Source: Actinomadura nitritigenes | GTDB taxonomy: Bacteria > Actinomycetota > Actinomycetes > Streptosporangiales > Streptosporangiaceae | Direction: 5' to 3' | Length of the DNA stretch: 64,000 nucleotides | Assembly: GCF_017573545.1 (NCBI RefSeq) | Contig: NZ_JAGEOK010000029.1 | Location: 1-64,000, forward strand | In this document: one piece after another, positions 2,920 to 55,734 of the stretch | How positions within the stretch are numbered: position 1 is the stretch's first letter | Layout of the letters: each line of letters starts with the position of its first letter | Position numbers and translations under genes: made by a program | The notes under the pieces: model-generated | Told to the model about the DNA's origin: nothing | Database searches by the model: none | Seen by the model: only the letters and a program-made list of their open reading frames with translations

Positions 2920-3492
2920 TCAGGCGCCGGCCGGGGCGGCTTCGGTGGTGACGGCGAGGAGGTCGGCGGCGCCGGCGGACAGGGCCTCGGCGAAGTCGGT
3001 CTCCTCGTCGGCCATCCACCGTTCGGTCGCGAGGCGGAGGACGGCCAGGCCGGCGTCGGTGGCGAGCCGCGCCGTCCGCCGGTCGCAGCCCCGGCGCACC
3101 AGGGCCGCGGTCAGGGCCTCGGAGAGCGAGACGAGTTTGATCAGCTCGCGCTCGCGCAGCGGCGGGTTCGCCGCGATGACCGCCGCCCGCTTCTCCAGGA
3201 AGTCGCGGGGACGGAACACCTCGGGCGCGGTGGCGAACGCGGCCAGCAGCGCCGGCAGCGCGCCGGTGCCCGCCGGGACGGCGTCCATCGCGGCCAGGAA
3301 CCGCTCCTGGAGGTCGTCGCCGGCGAACAGCACCTCGCGCTTGTCGGTGAACCAGCGGTAGAACGACCGCTCCGTCAGGTTCGCGCGCCGCGCGATCTGC
3401 GCGACCGTCGTGCGGTCGTAGCCCTGCTCGTCGAACAGTTCCAGCGCCGCCCGTTCGAGCCGTCCGCGCGCGTCGCCCTCCCAGCGTGCCAT
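2920..3492 (-). CDS. TetR family transcriptional regulator
   Basis: The 190-residue product starts MARWEGDARGRLERAALELF and carries the TetR HTH TTVAQIARRANLTERSFYRWF at about 27-47 (first part TTVAQIARRANLTERSFY). The ATG at 3492 is chosen because a longer reading frame to 3555 would run through the operator DNA. It is divergent from the MDR oxidoreductase and two identical-type 16-bp palindromes lie between the two starts, so it most likely represses both genes. The ligand domain is unassigned. Confidence 0.88.
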   Translation of the reverse strand: MARWEGDARGRLERAALELFDEQGYDRTTVAQIARRANLTERSFYRWFTDKREVLFAGDDLQERFLAAMDAVPAGTGALPALLAAFATAPEVFRPRDFLEKRAAVIAANPPLRERELIKLVSLSEALTAALVRRGCDRRTARLATDAGLAVLRLATERWMADEETDFAEALSAGAADLLAVTTEAAPAGA

Positions 3493-3507: not shown

Positions 3508-3563
3508 GACAGCAGATGCTGTCATCGCTCTGCTAGCGTGAGGTGACGACAGCATCTGCTGTC
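3508..3563. promoter_or_regulatory. Twin TetR operators
   Basis: Two copies of the dyad GACAGCA-N2-TGCTGTC lie at 3508-3523 and 3548-3563, with central GA and TC, so the second is the reverse complement of the first. Their centres are 40 bp apart, close to four helical turns. They fill most of the space between the divergent tetR and oxidoreductase starts; CTAGCGT between them could hold a -10 element. The repeats are directly seen and TetR binding is inferred. Confidence 0.8.
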
Positions 3564-3583: not shown

Positions 3584-4507
3584 ATGCGCACCCTTCGCTT
3601 CCACGAGCACGGAGCGGCGCTCGACGTCCTGAGGCTCGACGACGCCGAAGCCCCCGCGCCCGGCCCGGGCCGGGTCCGCGTCCGGGTCCAGGCGTGCGGG
3701 CTGACCCCGGCGGACTGGGCCCTGTGCGGCGGGCTCTTCCCCGGGGGCCTGCCGCGCGGCATCGGGCTGGAGGTCTCCGGCACGATCGACGCGCTCGGCG
3801 ACGGCGTGACCGGCGTCGCGATCGGCGATCCGGTGTTCGGCCCGGCGCCCTTCACCGGGCCGACCGCCGGCGCGTCCGAGCAGGCGCTCCTCGACGTGTG
3901 GTTCCCGCGGCCGGCGGGGCTCGACGCGGTCGGCGCCGCCGCGCTGCCGATGGCGGTCGAGACGGCCTACCGCGGCCTGGACGCGCTCGGCGTCCGCGAC
4001 GGCATGACCGTGCTCGTCCACGGCGCCGGGACCACCGTCGGGTACGCCGCGGTGCAGATGGCGCTCCAGCGCGGGGCGCGGGTCGTGGCCACCGCCGGGG
4101 AGACCTACGCCGGCGCGCTGCGGGCCGCGGGCGCCGAGGTCACCGGTTACGGCGCCGGCATGGCCGAGCGCGTGACGGCCCTCGCGGGCGGGCCGGTCGG
4201 CCTCGCCTTCGACGCGGCACCGGTCAGCGGCGCGCTGCCGGAGCTCGTGCGCACCGTCACGGCGCCGGAGCACGTGCTGACGGTCAGCGACTTCGACGCG
4301 GCCAGGGAACTCGGCGTGCGGTTCAGCGGACCCGGCGGCGAGGGCGCGGTGAGCACCCATGTGCTCGGCGAGTACGCGGCGCTCGCCGCCGAGGGCCGCT
4401 TCTCGATCCCGGTGGCCGGCACGTTCCCGCTGGAGGACTGGCGTACGGCTGCGGAGCTGAGCCTGTCGGGACGGGCGCGCGGCAAGGTCGTCCTGGAGAT
4501 CGGCTAG
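3584..4507 (+). CDS. Zinc-free MDR oxidoreductase (quinone-reductase-like)
   Basis: The 307-residue enzyme belongs to the medium-chain dehydrogenase/reductase superfamily, in the NADPH:quinone reductase-like branch that lacks catalytic zinc. The N-terminal GroES-like part includes ACGLTPADWALCGG and GLEVSGTIDALG, and the nucleotide-binding part has VHGAGTTVGYAAVQMALQRG at about 139-158 followed by GARVVATAG. A GAGGAGG ribosome site precedes the ATG. Expression is probably induced when the divergent TetR protein leaves the twin operators. The substrate, perhaps a reactive carbonyl or quinone, is not predictable. Confidence 0.85.
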   Translation: MRTLRFHEHGAALDVLRLDDAEAPAPGPGRVRVRVQACGLTPADWALCGGLFPGGLPRGIGLEVSGTIDALGDGVTGVAIGDPVFGPAPFTGPTAGASEQALLDVWFPRPAGLDAVGAAALPMAVETAYRGLDALGVRDGMTVLVHGAGTTVGYAAVQMALQRGARVVATAGETYAGALRAAGAEVTGYGAGMAERVTALAGGPVGLAFDAAPVSGALPELVRTVTAPEHVLTVSDFDAARELGVRFSGPGGEGAVSTHVLGEYAALAAEGRFSIPVAGTFPLEDWRTAAELSLSGRARGKVVLEIG

Positions 4508-4556: not shown

Positions 4557-4583
4557 TGTCACATACGGGGCGCGCCGATCGTC
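4557..4583 (+). promoter_or_regulatory. ECF41-type promoter for the decarboxylase-like pair
   Basis: TGTCACA at 4557-4563 is followed after exactly 16 bases by CGTC at 4580-4583. This matches the published consensus for ECF41-group sigma factors (TGTCACA-n16-CGTC), whose usual targets are carboxymuconolactone decarboxylases, oxidoreductases and epimerases. The ATG of the first gene is 42 bp downstream. The match is seen directly; which sigma factor uses it is inferred. Confidence 0.7.
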
Positions 4584-4624
4584 TATCACGTGAAGGCGGA
4601 AGGCCCGAGCCGCAGGGGGGCGCC

Positions 4625-4960
4625 ATGCCGGCCGAGGACAGGAAGCGAGCGGTGCACGACGCGCTGGTCGACCGCGTGCTGCACGGGGACGGCAGGGCGC
4701 CCGCGGAGCTGCGGGCGCGCGCGTTCCGCAACGAGGGCCTCGCCCCGCCGCTGGACGCGCTGATCGGCAAGGTCGCCGACAGCCCGGCGCAGGTCACCGA
4801 GGCGGACCTGGCCGCGGCGAAGGCGTCCGGCTGCACCGAGGACGAGCTGTTCGAGCTGGTGGTGTGCGCCGCGGTCGGCCGGTCCTCCCGGATGTACGAG
4901 GCCGGGCTCGCGGCCCTGGCCGACGCGGGCGGCGAGGAGGGGCCGGACCATGCGCCTTGA
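4625..4960 (+). CDS. Small carboxymuconolactone-decarboxylase-like partner protein
   Basis: This 111-residue product starts at an ATG preceded by a purine-rich GCAGGGGGG tract; a longer frame from 4556 would begin inside the promoter. The helical segment EDELFELVVCAAVGRSSRMY at about 72-91 resembles the second half of AhpD/CMD domains, but no CxxC or CxxxH redox motif is present. Its end overlaps the next gene by 11 bp, so the two are translationally coupled and may form a heteromer. A function beyond partner of the next gene cannot be claimed. Confidence 0.7.
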   Translation: MPAEDRKRAVHDALVDRVLHGDGRAPAELRARAFRNEGLAPPLDALIGKVADSPAQVTEADLAAAKASGCTEDELFELVVCAAVGRSSRMYEAGLAALADAGGEEGPDHAP

Positions 4961-5531
4961 CGTCCTGAACCACGGGTACCGCCCCGGCGCCAAGCTGCTG
5001 TTCGCCGCCGTCCGGCTGTTCTCCGGCCGGCCGCTGCCGGACGCCGCGAAGGTCACGTTCTACCGGCCCGACTTCTACGGCGCTCTGGCCAAGGAGTTCA
5101 CCCACGAGGCGATGCGCGGGCCGTCCGCCTGGTCCGTCGGCGACCGGGAGCTGATGGCGGCCTACGTGTCGAAGGTCAACGCGTCGGCGTTCTGCGTCGG
5201 CGCGCACACCGCGACCGCGACGCAGGCGTACGGGGACGGGGCGCGGGTCGCGGCCGTGCTCGCCGACCTGGAGGCGCCTCCCGTCGAGGAGCCGCTGCGG
5301 GCGACGCTGCGGATGCTCGGCGCGCTGACGCGGGACGGAGAGGTCGGCGCCGGCGACATGCGGGAGGTGCTGGCCGCCGGGGCGTCGCCCGAGCAGGTCC
5401 GGGACGCCCTGGCGGTCTGCGCCGCCTTCAACGCCACCGACCGGCTCGCCGACGCGTTCGGGTTCGAGCTGCTCAGCCCCGAGGGCTACGCGGCGGGCGC
5501 GAAGTTCCTGCTCAAGCGCGGCTACCGGTAG
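4950..5531 (+). CDS. Carboxymuconolactone decarboxylase family (AhpD-like) protein
   Basis: The 193-residue protein carries NASAFCVGAHTATATQAYGD near residue 73, giving the CxxxH part of the AhpD/CMD active site while the usual first Cys of CxxC is replaced by Ala. Family members are peroxidase-related or decarboxylase-like all-helical proteins. It is the second gene behind the ECF41-type promoter, matching the classical ECF41 target class. Reduced redox capacity is likely given the single cysteine, but this is inference. Confidence 0.78.
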   Translation: MRLDVLNHGYRPGAKLLFAAVRLFSGRPLPDAAKVTFYRPDFYGALAKEFTHEAMRGPSAWSVGDRELMAAYVSKVNASAFCVGAHTATATQAYGDGARVAAVLADLEAPPVEEPLRATLRMLGALTRDGEVGAGDMREVLAAGASPEQVRDALAVCAAFNATDRLADAFGFELLSPEGYAAGAKFLLKRGYR

Positions 5532-5549
5532 CGCGGCCGGGGCGCCGCG
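5532..5549. terminator. Short hairpin between convergent genes
   Basis: CGCGGC and GCCGCG form a 6-bp stem with a 6-base loop in the 18-bp gap between the convergent decarboxylase-like gene and the LysE exporter. No T-run follows on either strand, as is common in very GC-rich actinomycetes, so termination here is only plausible. Confidence 0.35.
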
Positions 5550-6173
5550 TCAGGACTCGGCGGCCAGGCGGATGCCCAGGCCGAGGAGGACGAGCCCGGA
5601 GACCTGCTCCATCCGGCGGCGGATCGACGCGCGCTGCAGCAGCGCGCGGGCCCGTCCCGCCAGCCAGACCATCGGCAGGTACCAGATCATGTCGACGACG
5701 GCCCAGATCACCGAGAACAGGACCAGCGTCGCCAGGACGGGCGCGCCGTGCGGGACGAACTGCGGCAGGAACGACACCGCGAACACCCCGGCCTTCGGGT
5801 TCGCGAAGTTGGTGATCAGACCCTGCCGGAACGCGCGCCCGTGCGAGACGGCCGCGGCGGGGGCCGGTTCGTCGTCGGCTTCGTCTTTGTGCCGCGCCTT
5901 CCACAGCGCGCGCGCCCCCATGTAGACCAGGACCACCGCGCCCGTGATGCGCATCGCGTCGTAGGCCAGGCGCGAGGCCAGCAGCAGGGCCGACAGGCCG
6001 AACGCGGCGGCCAGGCCCCACAGCAGGACTCCGCACTCGTTGCCGAGGACCGTCGCCATGCCGTTGACCCGGCCGTGCATCACCGAGCGCCGCAGGATCA
6101 CGGCGGTGCTGGGGCCGGGGACCATCGCGATCAGGAACGCCGCGCCGACGAATGCCACGAGCGAGGACATCAT
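5550..6173 (-). CDS. LysE/RhtB family amino-acid exporter
   Basis: The 207-residue membrane protein begins with MSSLVAFVGAAFLIAMVPGP, the characteristic first helix of LysE/RhtB exporters with the PGP motif. Six helices are expected, and FRQGLITNFANPKAGVFAVS at about 113-132 matches the conserved GxxxNxxNPKxxxF region in mid-protein. A charged, acidic loop (KDEADDEPAP) sits before it. Two adjacent ATG codons (6173 and 6170) can start it. It exports amino acids or related metabolites by proton exchange; the substrate is unknown. Confidence 0.88.
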   Translation of the reverse strand: MMSSLVAFVGAAFLIAMVPGPSTAVILRRSVMHGRVNGMATVLGNECGVLLWGLAAAFGLSALLLASRLAYDAMRITGAVVLVYMGARALWKARHKDEADDEPAPAAAVSHGRAFRQGLITNFANPKAGVFAVSFLPQFVPHGAPVLATLVLFSVIWAVVDMIWYLPMVWLAGRARALLQRASIRRRMEQVSGLVLLGLGIRLAAES

Positions 6174-6347
6174 GCGCCAAGTATCTAGAGTCGCCCGTAT
6201 CCCGACAACGCCTTTCCCGGTGGCGCGGCGCCGCCCGGTCCCGCCCGCGAGTGCGCGCGAGCGCGCGCGGCCTTCACGGCCGGACGCCCGGGACCGCCCC
6301 CGACGAGCGCGCGGCCGTCAGGGGCGGCCCGTCCCGGGCGGTGCGGC

Positions 6348-6818
6348 TCAGCCGAACTGGCCGGGCTGGTAGTCGCCGGCGGGCTGCTGCGTGATGACGT
6401 TGAGGCGGTTGTAGGTGTTGATCACGGCGATCATCCCCACCAGGGCGGCGAGCTGCTCCTCGTCGAAGTGCTTGGCGGCGTTCGCCCAGGTCTCGTCGCT
6501 GACGCCGGCCCCGTCGGCGAGGCGGGTGCCCTCCTCGGTCAGCTCCAGCGCCGCGCGCTCGGCGTCGGTGTAGACCGTGGCCTCCCGCCACGCGGCCACC
6601 AGGTTGATCCGCTGCTGGGTCTCCCCGGCGGCGGCGGCGTCCTTGCTGTGCATGTCGAGGCAGTAGCCGCAGCCGTTGATCTGGCTCGCGCGGATCTTCA
6701 CCAGCTCCTGCGTCGCGGCGGGGAGGCTGGAGTCGGCGATGGCCTTGCCCGCGGAGTTGATGTACTTCGCGACCTTCATGGCCACGTCGCTCTCGTAGAA
6801 GTTGATCCGTGCGCTCAT
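6348..6818 (-). CDS. AhpD-like carboxymuconolactone decarboxylase family protein
   Basis: The 156-residue product has the family's active site INGCGYCLDMHSKDA at about 49-63 with the CxxC and following His, as in alkylhydroperoxidase AhpD-like proteins that reduce peroxides or act in redox relay. The ATG at 6818 has GAGGAGACC upstream; a much longer open frame continuing to 8120 is only a by-product of GC bias. An ECF41-type promoter match lies 43-69 bp upstream of the start, linking it with the pair at 4625-5531. Confidence 0.87.
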   Translation of the reverse strand: MSARINFYESDVAMKVAKYINSAGKAIADSSLPAATQELVKIRASQINGCGYCLDMHSKDAAAAGETQQRINLVAAWREATVYTDAERAALELTEEGTRLADGAGVSDETWANAAKHFDEEQLAALVGMIAVINTYNRLNVITQQPAGDYQPGQFG

Positions 6819-6860
6819 CGTGGTCTCCTCATGGCGGTGTCGAAACGCTGACACCTCCAT

Positions 6861-6887
6861 GACGGGAGGGAGCCGCGGAATGTGACG
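6861..6887 (-). promoter_or_regulatory. ECF41-like promoter for the AhpD-like gene
   Basis: On the minus strand CGTCACA (6887-6881) is followed after exactly 16 bases by CGTC (6864-6861). This is one mismatch from the ECF41 consensus TGTCACA-n16-CGTC and the spacing is the same as at 4557-4583. The start codon lies 43 bp downstream. The sequence match is direct; sigma-factor use is inference. Confidence 0.6.
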
Positions 6888-8268: not shown

Positions 8269-8604
8269 ATGAAGATCCCGAGTCCGCTGCGCTCGGCGGC
8301 GCTGACCGCCGCCGGACTGACCATGGCCGCCGGCCTGGCCGCGTTCGCCCCCGCCGCCTCCTCGGCGAACGCGGCGGAGACGGCCACGGCCACGGCCGCG
8401 CGGGCGTGGCCGCGTCACTGCCCGTGGGGCACCCACTGGGACCCGTACTGGCACAGATGCGTCCGGGACCGCGGCCACGGCCACGGTGGCTGGGGCGACC
8501 ACGACGACCACGGCGACCACGGCCACGGCGGCTGGGGCGACCACGGCGGCTACGGTCACCACGGCGACCACGATGACCACGGCGACCACGGTCACCGCTG
8601 GTAG
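8269..8604 (+). CDS. Secreted His/Asp/Gly-rich repeat protein
   Basis: The 111-residue protein has an Ala-rich signal peptide (to about residue 36, ANAAE being a likely cleavage zone), a short CPWGTHWDPYWHRC segment with two cysteines, and then a low-complexity C-terminus made of GHGGWGD and HDDHGD units. The His and Asp density suggests binding of divalent metal ions, but there is no recognised domain. GGAGG precedes the ATG. It is monocistronic, with a 17-bp palindrome upstream and a strong hairpin downstream. Metal binding is inference from composition. Confidence 0.75.
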   Translation: MKIPSPLRSAALTAAGLTMAAGLAAFAPAASSANAAETATATAARAWPRHCPWGTHWDPYWHRCVRDRGHGHGGWGDHDDHGDHGHGGWGDHGGYGHHGDHDDHGDHGHRW

Positions 8605-11931: not shown

Positions 11932-12636
11932 TCAGCCGAAGCGGGCCAGGAGGTCGGAGCCGGTGGGGCCGTGGAACCGGATCAGGAGGATGTCGTGCAC
12001 GGCGACCGGGATCGTCCTGCCCCATGACCCCTTGCCGTCCTTGACGGACATCGCGCCGATCGGGACGTCGCGGCCGTCGCGGGTCGTGAGGGACATGCTG
12101 TAGGTGCCCGCTCGTCCCGCCTCCCCGATGGTGACGAAGAGCCAGGTCGGCGTTCCCTGGTAGGCGAACACGTAGCCCGCCGGCGCCGCGCCGGCCGGTG
12201 CGGCGCTCGTCCCGTCGACGGGCACCGTGCGAAGGTACCGGCCGTGCGCGACGGCCAGCGTCTTGCGGTAGCTGGACGCGAGGTCCCGGTCGCTTCGCGT
12301 CTCCTTCCATACCGCGCCCGCGGCGGCGCCCCCCGCGACGCCCGCGACCAGCACCGCCGACGCCGCGAGCGCCAGCGCGTCGCGCAGCCGCCGCGGCCGC
12401 CGGCGGCGCTGCATCGGCGCCAGCACGGACGCCTCGAAACCGGCGGGCGGCTGCCGTTCCGGAACGAGCTGGAACAGCTCGTCCACCAGGGCGGTCTGCG
12501 CCTCCAGCTCGCGCTGGCAGCGGCCGCAGCCCGCCAGGTGCCGCAGCGCGCGGGCGCGCTCGTCCGCCGGCGCGACGCCCGCCGCCAGCTCGGGAAGCAG
12601 CGGCCGCGTCTCGGCGCAGGCCGGCCGGTCAGTCAT
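11932..12636 (-). CDS. Anti-sigma factor with zinc-finger (ZAS) domain
   Basis: The 234-residue protein begins with a ZAS domain: His33, Cys37 and Cys40 in LRHLAGCGRCQREL, preceded by an acidic/hydrophobic helix. A single membrane helix (LALAASAVLVAGVAGGAAAG, about 88-107) follows, then an exported C-terminal domain. It overlaps the upstream ECF gene by 8 bp, the usual sigma/anti-sigma arrangement, so it should bind and silence that sigma factor until an envelope signal arrives. The signal is not evident. Confidence 0.87.
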   Translation of the reverse strand: MTDRPACAETRPLLPELAAGVAPADERARALRHLAGCGRCQRELEAQTALVDELFQLVPERQPPAGFEASVLAPMQRRRRPRRLRDALALAASAVLVAGVAGGAAAGAVWKETRSDRDLASSYRKTLAVAHGRYLRTVPVDGTSAAPAGAAPAGYVFAYQGTPTWLFVTIGEAGRAGTYSMSLTTRDGRDVPIGAMSVKDGKGSWGRTIPVAVHDILLIRFHGPTGSDLLARFG

Positions 12637-13177
12637 GGGTCACTCCCAGCGCCTCGCGGAGTCGGGCGAGCCCCCGGCGCAGCCGGGTCTTCGCGGTGCC
12701 GAGCGGGATGTGCTCGCGGTCGGCGATCTCGCCGACCGTCAGCCCGTAGAACACCGACAGCACGATCGGGGTGCTCTGCTCGCGGGGCAGGGCGCGCAGG
12801 GCCTCGCGCAGCTCCTCGGCGTCCTCGAACGACGTCCCCGGTGGCGCGGCGCGCTCCGCGCCGGTCAGCGTGGTCAGCAGCAGGTGCGGATCGACGGGCC
12901 GGTCGGCGCGCAGCCGCAGCGCGTCGACCGCCAGGTTCCGGGTGATCGTCAGCAGCCAGGTGACCGCCCGGCCCTTGCGCGGATCGTAGGCGCCCGCGTG
13001 CCGCCACGCGCGCAGGAACGCCTCCTGCGCGACCTCCTCGGCGATCGCCGAGGACCCGACCAGCGTGTACGCGAGGCCGTACACGCGGGCCTGGTAGCGC
13101 CGGACGAACACGGCCGCCGTCTCCGGGTCGCCCGCGGCCATGCCGGTGAGCAGTGACTCATCGGAAAGTTCCCACAT
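12629..13177 (-). CDS. ECF RNA polymerase sigma factor
   Basis: The 182-residue product has sigma region 2 (RYQARVYGLAYTLVGS, then EEVAQEAFLRAWRHAGAYDP) and region 4 (TPIVLSVFYGLTVGEIADRE, IPLGTAKTRLRRGLARLRE). The ATG at 13177 is preferred over a TTG at 13183 because an ECF-type -10 (CGTATT on the minus strand) ends five bases upstream, making a leaderless message likely. It is paired with the anti-sigma gene and divergent from a lipoprotein/cytochrome b operon that shares the same promoter signature. Confidence 0.9.
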   Translation of the reverse strand: MWELSDESLLTGMAAGDPETAAVFVRRYQARVYGLAYTLVGSSAIAEEVAQEAFLRAWRHAGAYDPRKGRAVTWLLTITRNLAVDALRLRADRPVDPHLLLTTLTGAERAAPPGTSFEDAEELREALRALPREQSTPIVLSVFYGLTVGEIADREHIPLGTAKTRLRRGLARLREALGVTHD

Positions 13178-13181
13178 GAGC

Positions 13182-13248
13182 AATACGGATGCGAGGCACG
13201 AAAGGGTTCACGAAATGGCGAATCTCTTGCGGTCCGTCCCGGCGTATT
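13182..13248. promoter_or_regulatory. Divergent ECF-type promoters
   Basis: Minus strand: GAACC (13209-13205), 17 bases, CGTATT (13187-13182), ending five bases before the sigma-factor ATG. Plus strand: GAATC (13220-13224), 18 bases, CGTATT (13243-13248), about 37 bp before the lipoprotein ATG. The shared GAAYC/CGTATT pattern suggests one ECF factor reads both directions, i.e. autoregulation plus control of the lipoprotein operon. The pattern is my own comparison and is not a published consensus for this factor. Confidence 0.45.
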
Positions 13249-53475: not shown

Positions 53476-54129
53476 ATGATCGCCTCCCCCCTCGACACCA
53501 CCCGCACCGGCTACGACTCCGTCGCCGAGCTGTACACCGAGCTGTTCAGCACCGCGTTCCTCGACATGCCGTTCGACCTCGGGATGATCAACGCGTTCGG
53601 GCGGCTCACCCGGGACGCCGGGCCGGTCGCCGACCTCGGCTGCGGCCCCGGGCACCTCACCGCCCACCTGCGCTCGCTCGGCTGCGACGCGTTCGGCGCC
53701 GACGTGTCCGCGGAGATGATCCGGATCGCCCGCGCGGCGCACCCGGACGTCCGGTTCGACCACGTTCCGATGACCGAGGTGGACGTCCGCGACGGCGAGC
53801 TCGGCGGCGTCCTCGCCTGGTACTCGATCATCCACGCGCCGGTGGAGGACGTGCCGGGCCTGCTCGCCGCGTTCCACCGGATGCTGGCGCCCGGCGGCCA
53901 CCTGCTGCTCGGCTTCTTCGCGTCCGACACCGCCGAGCCCGTCCCGTTCGACCACAAGGTGGCGCCGGCGCACCGCTGGCCCATCGACGCCCTCGCCGAC
54001 CTGGCGGCCGGCGCCGGCTTCACCGAGATCGCGAGGCTCCGCCGCGAGCCCGGCGAAGGCGAGCGCCACCGCCAGGGCCACCTCCTCGTCCGCAAGTCAG
54101 GGGAGGAGGGCGAGGCGGAGGCGGTGTAG
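53476..54129 (+). CDS. Class I SAM-dependent methyltransferase
   Basis: The 217-residue enzyme has motif I VADLGCGPGHLTAHL (about 50-64), the acidic motif DAFGADVSAEMIRIARAAHP, VLAWYSIIHAPVEDVPGLLA and LAPGGHLLLGFFA as in the Methyltransf_11/25 group. It transfers a methyl group to an unknown small acceptor. The last 33 bases overlap the convergent ECF sigma gene. GGGGAGC precedes the ATG. Confidence 0.85.
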   Translation: MIASPLDTTRTGYDSVAELYTELFSTAFLDMPFDLGMINAFGRLTRDAGPVADLGCGPGHLTAHLRSLGCDAFGADVSAEMIRIARAAHPDVRFDHVPMTEVDVRDGELGGVLAWYSIIHAPVEDVPGLLAAFHRMLAPGGHLLLGFFASDTAEPVPFDHKVAPAHRWPIDALADLAAGAGFTEIARLRREPGEGERHRQGHLLVRKSGEEGEAEAV

Positions 54130-54960
54130 GCGGGCCGGGTCGCTGATCACGGTGAAGCCGGCGATGCGGTCGTTCTCCACGGCGACCTGGAGGACGGCCG
54201 CGAGGCGGCCCCGCGGGGCGACGACGACTCCCACCGCGCCGTCCACCAGGGCGAGACGGGCGTTCCGGGCGCGGGCGGGGTTGGCGAGGGTCTCCCCGGC
54301 GATGCGGCGGGCGCCCCGGACCTCCGCCGCGCCCTCGGCGCGCCGGAACGCGTCCGGCGCGAGCACCGCGAGCAGCGCGTCCATGTCGCCGGACCGGGAC
54401 GCGGCGAGGAACGCCGACACGGCCTCCCGCTGCCGCGCGAGATCGGCGGCGGGCACCGACGGCGACCCCTGCACGCGCCGCCGGGCCCGGCTCGCCAGCT
54501 TCTTCGCGGTCTCCGGGGTCCGCTCGACGATCCCGGCGATCTCCGCGAACGGCACGGCGAACAGGTCGTGCAGCACGAACGCGACGCGCTCGGCGGGGCC
54601 GAGGCGGTCCAGGACGACGAGCATCGCCAGCCCCACCGCGTCGGCGAGCACCGCCTCCTCCTCGGGATCGCGGCCGCCCGCCCGCTCCGGCCCGTCCAGG
54701 CCGTGAAGGCCGTCGAGGCCGCCGGGGTCCTCGCCGCGGCGCCGCCGCGACCGCAGCATGTCGAGGCAGATCCGCCCGGCGATCGTGGTCAGCCAGCCGG
54801 GCAGGTTCGCGACGTCCCCGGCGCCCGCCCGGGACGCCCGCAGCCACGTCTCCTGGACCGCGTCGTCGGCCTCGTCCAGCGAGCCGAGCATCCGGTACGC
54901 GACCGCCCGCAGGTGGCCGCGGCACTCATCGAACCGCTCCGCCAGCACCTGCTCGTCCAT
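54097..54960 (-). CDS. ECF sigma factor with SnoaL-like C-terminal domain (SigJ/ECF41-like)
   Basis: The 287-residue protein has ECF regions 2 (FDECRGHLRAVAYRMLGSLD, EADDAVQETWLRASRAG) and 4 (GPAERVAFVLHDLFAVPFAE, IAGIVERTPETAKKLASRAR), followed by an about 120-residue SnoaL-like domain (LARQREAVSAFLAASRSGDM onward) that tunes sigma activity without a classical anti-sigma protein. The DGGGK motif of canonical ECF41 is not present; the corresponding zone reads RRAEGAAEVRGARR, so it may belong to a sister group. ATG 54960 follows AAGGGGAC. It is divergent from an azoreductase gene. Confidence 0.87.
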   Translation of the reverse strand: MDEQVLAERFDECRGHLRAVAYRMLGSLDEADDAVQETWLRASRAGAGDVANLPGWLTTIAGRICLDMLRSRRRRGEDPGGLDGLHGLDGPERAGGRDPEEEAVLADAVGLAMLVVLDRLGPAERVAFVLHDLFAVPFAEIAGIVERTPETAKKLASRARRRVQGSPSVPAADLARQREAVSAFLAASRSGDMDALLAVLAPDAFRRAEGAAEVRGARRIAGETLANPARARNARLALVDGAVGVVVAPRGRLAAVLQVAVENDRIAGFTVISDPARLHRLRLALLP

Positions 54961-54984
54961 CCGTCCCCTTTCGTCGGCGCGGGT

Positions 54985-55011
54985 CGTCATAGCTGTGGGA
55001 ACAAGGACGAC
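54985..55011 (+). promoter_or_regulatory. Weak ECF41-like promoter candidate for the azoreductase
   Basis: CGTCATA, 16 bases, CGAC (54985-54991 and 55008-55011) keeps the ECF41 spacing but mismatches the consensus at three positions. It lies 28 bp upstream of the azoreductase ATG. Oxidoreductases next to such sigma genes are typical targets, but the match alone is weak. Confidence 0.3.
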
Positions 55012-55038: not shown

Positions 55039-55734
55039 ATGCTATCGGCCCACGACCAGGTCACCTCGCTGCTGCACCTGGACTCCAGCCACTCCGGCGA
55101 TTCCATTACCCGGCGCCTGTCCGCGCGGTTCGCGGACGCGTGGCGGGAACGGCACGGGACGTCCGGTCACCGGTACCGCGATCTCGTCGCCGATCCGGTG
55201 CCGCCGATATCGGCGGCCTACTGCGAACTCGGACGCCGCGTCGAGAGGAACGGCTACGTGCCGCCCGCGAAAGTCGACGCGCTCGTGGAGGACGCCGCCG
55301 AGGAACGCGAATGGTCGCTGACCCTGCCGCTGGTCGAGCAGTTCCTCGACGCCGGAACGGTGCTGATCGGCGCCCCCATGTACAACTTCTCGGTCCCCGC
55401 TTCGCTCAAGGCGTGGATCGACCGGATCACCTTTCCCGGTGCGTACACCGACCCGGACACGGGCCGGAGCCTGCTGCACGGCAAGCGGATCGTCGTCGTG
55501 ACGGCGCGCGGCGGCGCTTACGGTCCCGGCACGCCGCGCGAGGGCTTCGACTTCCAGGAGCCCTACCTGCGGGCCTACTTCGGCAATCTCGGCGTCGCCG
55601 AGGACGGCGTGACCTTCGTCAACGCCGAAATGACACTCGCCGGCCTCGTCCCGCACCTGGCACGATTCAAGGGAATGGCGGCACGATCGCTCGCCGAGGC
55701 CCGCGAGGCGGTGACCGCCCTGGCCTCTCGCTGA
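55039..55734 (+). CDS. azoR: FMN-dependent NADH-azoreductase-like flavodoxin-fold oxidoreductase
   Basis: The 231-residue protein begins with LLHLDSSHSGDSITRRLSARF, the phosphate-binding start of the AzoR flavodoxin fold, and has AGTVLIGAPMYNFSVPASLK and AWIDRITFPGAYT (the conserved PMYNF..P..LK.WID segment) and VVVTARGGAYGPGTPREGFD. It reduces azo or quinone compounds with NAD(P)H and FMN, probably in quinone detoxification. AAGGAG precedes the ATG. It is divergent from the SnoaL-tailed sigma gene, its likely regulator. Confidence 0.87.
   Translation: MLSAHDQVTSLLHLDSSHSGDSITRRLSARFADAWRERHGTSGHRYRDLVADPVPPISAAYCELGRRVERNGYVPPAKVDALVEDAAEEREWSLTLPLVEQFLDAGTVLIGAPMYNFSVPASLKAWIDRITFPGAYTDPDTGRSLLHGKRIVVVTARGGAYGPGTPREGFDFQEPYLRAYFGNLGVAEDGVTFVNAEMTLAGLVPHLARFKGMAARSLAEAREAVTALASR

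Follow-up and report, generated by a model that had tools for sequence, protein, structure and literature searches.

Predicted ECF41-type promoter of an AhpD-like gene and a separate ECF-type promoter of a nearby gene pair in Actinomadura nitritigenes

Is a single extracytoplasmic function (ECF) sigma factor of the ECF41 class responsible for two closely spaced transcription units of Actinomadura nitritigenes, or does each unit have a promoter of its own kind? The question is raised by bases 1-64000 of a 136-kb contig (C27) in the 10.59-Mb genome (labelled G000; labels in G, C and L denote our genomes, contigs and loci). This stretch of 64,000 nucleotides is referred to as the window. In it, an AhpD-like gene and a pair of genes that includes a member of the carboxymuconolactone decarboxylase (CMD) family, hereafter the CMD pair, are each preceded by a site resembling TGTCACA-N16-CGTC. 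The initial annotation had taken them for one small ECF41 regulon split over both units, with a LysE exporter lying between them. The reading favored here, with a probability of about 0.7, is that the AhpD-like gene (6348-6818) would be transcribed from the site at 6887-6861 by a sigma factor of the ECF41/SigJ class encoded elsewhere, and that the CMD pair would have a separate ECF-type promoter. The features on which this prediction from comparative sequence analysis turns are listed below.

4557..4583, plus strand: predicted ECF-type promoter of the CMD pair, TGTCACA-N16-CGTC, ECF41- or ECF42-like
4625..4960, plus strand: first gene of the CMD pair, a conserved partner of 111 amino acids with no Pfam match at 0.001 and no NCBIfam match
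4950..5531, plus strand: CMD-family protein of 193 amino acids (CMD, 41.7 bits) with no CxxC motif (SAFC there)
6348..6818, minus strand: AhpD-like CMD-family protein of 156 amino acids with a CxxC motif, CGYC (CMD, 83.9 bits; ahpD core domain, 79 bits)
6861..6887, minus strand: predicted ECF41-type promoter of the AhpD-like gene (-35 CGTCACA at 6887-6881, N16, -10 CGTC at 6864-6861)

The predicted promoter of the AhpD-like gene

The motif searched for was TGTCACA-N16-CGTC (-35 heptamer, spacer and -10 element) under mismatch thresholds, with the N17 form scored separately and with reversed patterns, dinucleotide shuffles and antisense sequence as controls. Both sites claimed by the initial annotation were indeed present. 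The site at 4557-4583 (plus strand) was the single exact match in the window (0.04 expected from shuffles), the site at 6887-6861 (minus strand), CGTCACA-N16-CGTC, differed by one mismatch, and the two were the sole N16 matches in the window at up to one mismatch. They lie 41 and 42 nucleotides from the start codons at 4625 and 6818, respectively, and transcripts of the CMD pair and of the AhpD-like gene are predicted to start near 4590 and near 6854. Relaxing the threshold to two mismatches gave 6 N16 matches in the window against 18.2 expected, and 12 N17 matches, each with two mismatches, against 17.5 expected. Because these counts are below expectation, the motif is not common background. 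In the whole genome the exact pattern occurred 6 times (reversed-pattern control, 0) and the core GTCACA-N16-CGTC 24 times (reversed control, 2). Six of these 24 core sites lie 35-59 nucleotides ahead of plausible gene starts, a placement that is the analyst's reading, the automatic coding filter having passed over the AhpD-like gene, which was added from the five-genome site list described below. The genes behind the six are the CMD pair, the AhpD-like gene, a SigJ-like ECF gene, a short-chain dehydrogenase/reductase (SDR) gene, a FAD-linked oxidoreductase gene and a gene for a hemerythrin-like protein. The genome-wide search for random matches, which had been proposed as a check, thus gave a mixed answer: 24 core matches, six of them ahead of genes.

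Conservation of the AhpD site was followed in three sets: 64 loci of relatives (used out of 80 in the database, the 16 CMD-pair loci L154-L169 being excluded), 80 named loci (Streptomyces, Kitasatospora, Nonomuraea, Mycolicibacterium, Nocardia and others), and 140 distinct upstream regions from Actinobacteria (144 less 4 duplicates). The best N16 site within 150 nucleotides had no mismatch in 24 of the 64 loci, one in 26 and two in 8, and was lacking in 6; in the 58 loci having a site at up to two mismatches it was positioned at -60 to -69. The background rate of 0.0062 per 150 nucleotides in this set is an overestimate, since the AhpD sites themselves were counted. Among the named loci the corresponding numbers were 36, 26, 7 and 11, and 6 of the 11 loci lacking an N16 site carried the N17 form, exact or with one mismatch. 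The motif was found at up to one mismatch in 107 of the 140 upstream regions (shuffled mean, 0.35; reversed and antisense sequence, 0 each). On this conservation, a chance origin of the AhpD site is rejected.

The -35 and -10 columns had the highest information content, the spacer positions less. The first base of the -35 element was variable (T 90, C 25, G 6 and A 1 among 122 sites), and the distance from CGTC to the start codon was 36-40 nucleotides in 99 of 122 leaders. Both cysteines of the AhpD CGYC motif were invariant across 19 aligned sequences. The site in the window combines a -35 element one mismatch from TGTCACA, a -10 CGTC at 16±1 bp and a CxxC CMD-family gene behind it, and departs from the ECF41 pattern in that no ECF41 gene lies beside AhpD in this genome. 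As the initial annotation had proposed, it is very probably an ECF41-type promoter, and it is widely conserved.

Within the AhpD leaders, the pentamer GTGTA was present in 53 of 122, mostly 6 nucleotides past the -10 CGTC and near the predicted transcript start, against 2.4 in shuffles. GGTGTC, also considered as a conserved leader element, did not hold up: it occurred in 4 of 122 leaders, where shuffles gave 1.5.

ECF genes linked to AhpD were sought by tblastn with a panel of ECF proteins from the A. nitritigenes genome; some loci stop at contig ends, so that a linked gene could escape. By this search AhpD had an ECF41-type gene within about 1.6 kb in 6 of the 64 loci of relatives and in 11 of the 80 named loci, one of the latter (L351) being a weak match, and the same panel and distance gave none in the other 58 and 69. 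In A. nitritigenes itself the panel revealed no ECF41-type gene near AhpD or the CMD pair, and the whole contig yielded only the SigJ-like gene at 54097-54990. Such rare linkage suggests that AhpD is mostly a target in trans of an ECF41-class sigma factor, as seems to be the case here.

Candidate sigma factors

In all, 110 sigma genes were found in the genome, of which 37 were extracted, followed by 19 more. Among the first 37, the ECF41 hallmarks of a WLPEP-like linker and an NP[DEA]K[LI] tail were present in 13, and 4 were SigJ-like; the genome thus has at least these 13 canonical and 4 SigJ-like paralogues. One SigJ-like gene, L072 (G000:C39:100147-101019), carries CGTCACA-N16-CGTC at -62 of its own start, and among the 30 best orthologues, a set that includes L072 itself, 29 have NGTCACA-N16-CGTC at -59 to -64. 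A site at up to one mismatch within 160 nucleotides upstream of the ECF start was found at 4 of the 15 canonical-type ECF41 loci of this genome (L064, L068, L070 and L081); at further canonical-type loci a site lies ahead of a gene farther upstream, and none of the 12 ECF56-like loci had a site within 3.5 kb. The L072 product has a sigma2 (r2) domain at residues 11-74 and a sigma4 (r4) domain at 111-161 of 290, followed by a C-terminal extension of about 100 residues for which no Pfam SnoaL match was obtained at 0.001. An L072-type factor (E ≤ 1e-100) was present in 34 of 48 relatives having the AhpD motif at up to one mismatch. These data point to L072 as the leading, though not universal, candidate for the AhpD regulator, and the likeliest one in this species.

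Several observations weigh against this assignment or against the wider reading. Apart from the six placed ahead of genes, the core matches of the genome (18 of 24) lie within coding frames or have no such gene behind them. L072 lacks the WLPEP linker and NPDKL, having RLPDP and ADPVRL in their place, and its best family match, NCBIfam NF007214 (SigJ), scored 268 bits, just below the curated cut-off of 271. In the six loci with a SigJ-like gene immediately upstream of AhpD (L223, L258, L314, L325, L349 and L352), the promoter read TGTTACG-N16-CGTC without exception, with a different -35 element from TGTCACA. The other 14 of the 48 relatives had no L072-type factor at E ≤ 1e-100, 10 of them having only an L071-type ECF41 factor (E ≤ 1e-90) and 4 neither, under cut-offs that were the analyst's choice. 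In G003 the nearest SigJ-like protein was only 44% identical, and G030 combines an exact AhpD motif with three canonical ECF41 genes and no SigJ-like gene. Neither L072 nor an L071-type factor was upheld by co-occurrence across relatives as the sole regulator of AhpD.

It is quite conceivable, at somewhat less than even odds, that AhpD is served not by a SigJ-like factor but by a canonical ECF41 paralogue (L071-, L066- or L058/L082-type), or by several factors together. The gene content of G030 agrees with this, as does the presence of L071-type (L234 and L247) and L066-type genes (L248, L341, L348 and L366) next to AhpD in some genomes; at the L066-linked loci the AhpD promoter reads TGTCAC[AT]-N16-CGTC with a G-rich start of the spacer. 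Against it, L071-type genes were not found at E ≤ 1e-60 in G006, G007, G014, G020 and G040, all of which retain the motif, and AhpD promoters within 1.6 kb of an L068-type factor carried GGTC at -10 in three of three cases (L307, L310 and L338). The simplest reading would be that several ECF41 paralogues have overlapping specificity, with L072 the likeliest among them in A. nitritigenes.

The window itself holds one further candidate:

54097..54990, minus strand: SigJ-like ECF sigma factor of 297 amino acids, the sole ECF41-family-like gene that the contig yielded and a possible regulator

As an obvious regulator of AhpD this gene is disfavored, there being no motif at up to one mismatch within 3.5 kb of it. 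Transcribed divergently from it, at about 55040-55734, is a gene that by eye resembles an FMN reductase.

Other genes behind the motif were collected from GTCACA-N16-CGTC sites in five Actinomadura genomes (93 sites in 96 rows, some sites being duplicated), with wrong-frame open reading frames ignored. Since the five were picked for known AhpD and SigJ-like motifs, the recurrence of those two in five of five is by choice. Further recurring followers were an SDR oxidoreductase (3 of 5 genomes), a hemerythrin-like gene (2), the CMD pair (2) and a second AhpD-like gene (2); additional ECF41-type genes (G031 and G041) and, in 3 genomes, a gene 149-151 nucleotides away also followed the motif. In A. 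nitritigenes the motif-bearing genes include the SDR gene L030 (G000:C7:167998), the FAD-linked oxidoreductase gene L031 (G000:C11:222485) and the hemerythrin-like gene L043 (G000:C50:32137). The vicinity of these three (about 5 kb) contained no ECF41-type gene; another ECF gene is situated some 4.5 kb away from the FAD gene.

The predicted promoter of the CMD pair

The name of the pair given by the initial annotation fits its second gene (4950-5531), with the CMD match noted above, and not its first (4625-4960), for which Pfam gave no match at 0.001. Among 12 aligned orthologues of the CMD protein, CxxC was found in one (L169). The promoter was compared in 19 loci, comprising 18 of relatives and that of A. 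nitritigenes. TGTC-N19/20-CGTC was present ahead of the pair in 17 of the 19 (own genome counted), as against 0.19 in shuffles, and an ECF-kind promoter of the CMD pair is therefore well supported. The -35 heptamer in these 17 was TGTCACA in 3, TGTCACG in 3 and another sequence in 11, of which 8 began TGTCG. The spacing was N17 in 15 of the 17, so that the identical spacing reported for the two sites holds for this genome, where both are N16, and not for the orthologues.

In A. nitritigenes the site has the -35 TGTCACA, the -10 CGTC and the 16±1 bp spacing of ECF41 promoters. However, TGTCACA is not retained in most orthologues and the target is a CMD without CxxC. The TGTCG expected at the -35 of an ECF42 promoter is replaced by TGTCACA in the window and is present in 8 of the 17 orthologues. 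In the CMD protein tree, the TGTCACA species (G000, G044 and G008) form one clade (100/97), two TGTCACG species join them (91/85), and the third, G037, was not placed with confidence. In the neighborhoods of the pair in the 18 loci of relatives (about 5 kb per side, part of them clipped by contig ends), AhpD lies beside it in two, those of G044 and G008; together with the window, these are the only loci in which the pair adjoins both LysE and AhpD.

The version of the initial annotation, in which the two units of this species form a split regulon under a single ECF41 factor, appears doubtful. Both sites of this genome fit the ECF41 consensus, both units are also pattern hits in G008, and the species with exact TGTCACA at the pair are those in which it adjoins AhpD. 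The orthologues speak otherwise, with a -35 other than TGTCACA in 14 of 17 and the prevailing N17 spacer, as do the missing CxxC and the failure to find AhpD beside the pair in 16 of the 18 loci of relatives. The part of the split regulon that stands is the ECF41-type promoter of AhpD; the CMD pair, by its diverging -35 and spacing and its CMD without CxxC, does not follow. Nor does the gene lying between the two units:

5550..6173, minus strand: LysE-type exporter between the two units, a neighbor with no sign of regulon membership

Nothing connects this exporter to the motif, and no N16 or N17 match at up to two mismatches was found ahead of it.

Slightly more doubtful still is the alternative that the pair is an ECF42-type target here too, with TGTCACA a tolerated variant. 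Its basis is the sequence TGTCGTA-N17-CGTCT, which lies ahead of the CMD pair in G048, G061 and G046 and also ahead of a vicinal oxygen chelate (VOC) gene in G041 (L282, G041:C15). About 0.4 kb on from the latter is an ECF gene whose product is 78% identical over 227 amino acids to an ECF42-type factor (DUF6596) of A. nitritigenes at L509. L509 (G000:C7) has the same arrangement of a VOC gene followed by the ECF42-type sigma gene, with the site TGTCGGA-N17-CGTC, and two further ECF42-like loci of this genome have TGTCGA...CG(T/A)C sites ahead of small upstream genes. In Sinorhizobium meliloti, ECF42 promoters start TGTCGG, according to the available part of PMC6180224. Against this alternative, the site in A. 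nitritigenes is exactly the ECF41 consensus with N16, and the L509 site of the same genome differs from the shared sequence. Moreover, a search for TGTCNTR-N17-CGTCT, aimed at an autoregulated ECF gene, covered nine relatives picked for fitting the CMD promoter, so that the nine of nine at the pair are by choice; it returned 27 matches, the reversed control 29. Because the pattern is not enriched overall, the single G041 hit may be chance, and both this alternative and the idea of a change of sigma group at the pair are weakened. Of the other 18 matches, one is that ahead of the G041 VOC gene and several recur in two genomes each. Under the favored reading, the separate ECF-type promoter of the pair may descend from an ECF42-like one and is ECF41-like within this clade.

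Also among these 18 matches, TGTCCTA-N17-CGTCT was seen 60 nucleotides ahead of a gene that is iron-sulfur-insertion-protein-like by eye at L268, L269 and L278 (G064, G041 and G056).

Chance occurrence of the two motifs, such as a GC-rich genome might produce and as the 18 core matches away from gene starts might suggest, is very unlikely: the AhpD site is conserved in 107 of 140 upstream regions (0.35 in shuffles), and TGTC-N19/20-CGTC is conserved ahead of the CMD pair in 17 of 19 loci (0.19 in shuffles).

Elsewhere in the window, a TetR gene (2920-3492) and an alcohol-dehydrogenase-like gene (3584-4507) diverge, and the two palindromes GACAGCA-n2-TGCTGTC separating them at 3508-3563 are likely TetR operators. 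At 8269-8604 a small, secreted-looking protein is encoded whose tail is a His/Asp/Gly-rich repeat (GDHGHGG...) and which, judged by eye, may bind metal. A SigK-like ECF gene (best NCBIfam match, below cut-off) lies at 11932-13183 with an overlapping downstream gene that is anti-sigma-like by eye.

Proposed mechanism and relation to known systems

In the mechanism that we propose, a factor of the ECF41/SigJ class would be kept inactive by its own C-terminal extension until a signal frees it, a mode of control described for ECF41/SigJ factors in the available parts of PMC3426412 and PMC8999054. The freed factor, with RNA polymerase, would read NGTCACA-N16-CGTC, leading to production of a CxxC hydroperoxidase-type protein, AhpD, which we infer to act in hydroperoxide or thiol-disulfide defense. 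The motif ahead of the SigJ-like gene L072 suggests that the same factor would transcribe its own gene as well. L072 would be the likeliest regulator, and the other canonical ECF41 paralogues, at least 13, could do or share the task. The CMD pair (4625-5531) would be under its own ECF-type promoter, which in orthologues is usually TGTCNNN-N17-CGTC, often with TGTCG as at ECF42 loci, and is ECF41-like here.

A bolder proposal, which we regard as improbable at present, joins these elements. It would comprise a trans ECF41/SigJ regulon in Actinobacteria, made up of an autoregulated sigma factor and an unlinked CxxC AhpD, to which Actinomadura adds the SDR, hemerythrin-like and other genes. It would also include a switch of the CMD pair from ECF42-type TGTCG-N17-CGTC to ECF41-type TGTCACA in a single small clade, whose species are those that have the pair beside AhpD. 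If true, the orphan ECF41 factors would belong to the same circuit as the orphan AhpD targets, each supplying one half of it. In any case, the conserved and mostly unlinked AhpD promoter offers orphan ECF41 factors a target and renders the question testable, and at the CMD pair a promoter may have passed from one sigma group to another whose recognition sequence is similar.

The motif, the ECF41 class and its CMD targets are already known. We consider the conserved, mostly unlinked AhpD promoters and the possible change of sigma group at the CMD pair to be moderately novel; neither was found described in the literature searched, which did not cover all likely papers. In the available part of Wecke et al. 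2012 (PMC3426412), ECF41 targets are TGTCACA-n16(±1)-CGTC sites upstream of a CxxC CMD/AhpD (COE) gene, in agreement with the ECF41 control of CMD/AhpD-type genes assumed by the initial annotation. According to the same text, ECF41 generally controls a single target gene or operon, the adjacent COE gene, with no further conserved regulon members besides the COE genes and the ECF41 genes themselves. About 30% of ECF41 genes are reported there as not clustered with COE genes, and many orphan ECF41 genes are noted in actinobacteria.

The AhpD system of the window resembles the ECF41 systems covered by that text in having the motif ahead of a CxxC CMD/AhpD gene and in a factor with a C-terminal extension and no obvious anti-sigma factor. 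It differs in that the target adjoins the sigma gene there, whereas here AhpD was unlinked in most loci of both sets. As AhpD is itself a COE-type gene, this extends rather than contradicts the COE exception made by Wecke et al. Every ECF41-linked CMD described in that part has CxxC, and the AhpD of the window therefore fits, whereas the CMD at 4950-5531 does not. M. tuberculosis SigJ is classed in ECF41 in the available part of PMC8999054; L072 is like the SigJ factors of NF007214 in its best family match, and unlike them in falling under the curated cut-off and in having no WLPEP/NPDKL. With the ECF42 systems (S. meliloti RpoE10 in the part of PMC6180224 available, and the L509 factor with DUF6596) the CMD pair shares TGTCG...CGTC in the 8 of 17 orthologue promoters that start TGTCG, and differs from them by the TGTCACA at its -35 in the window.

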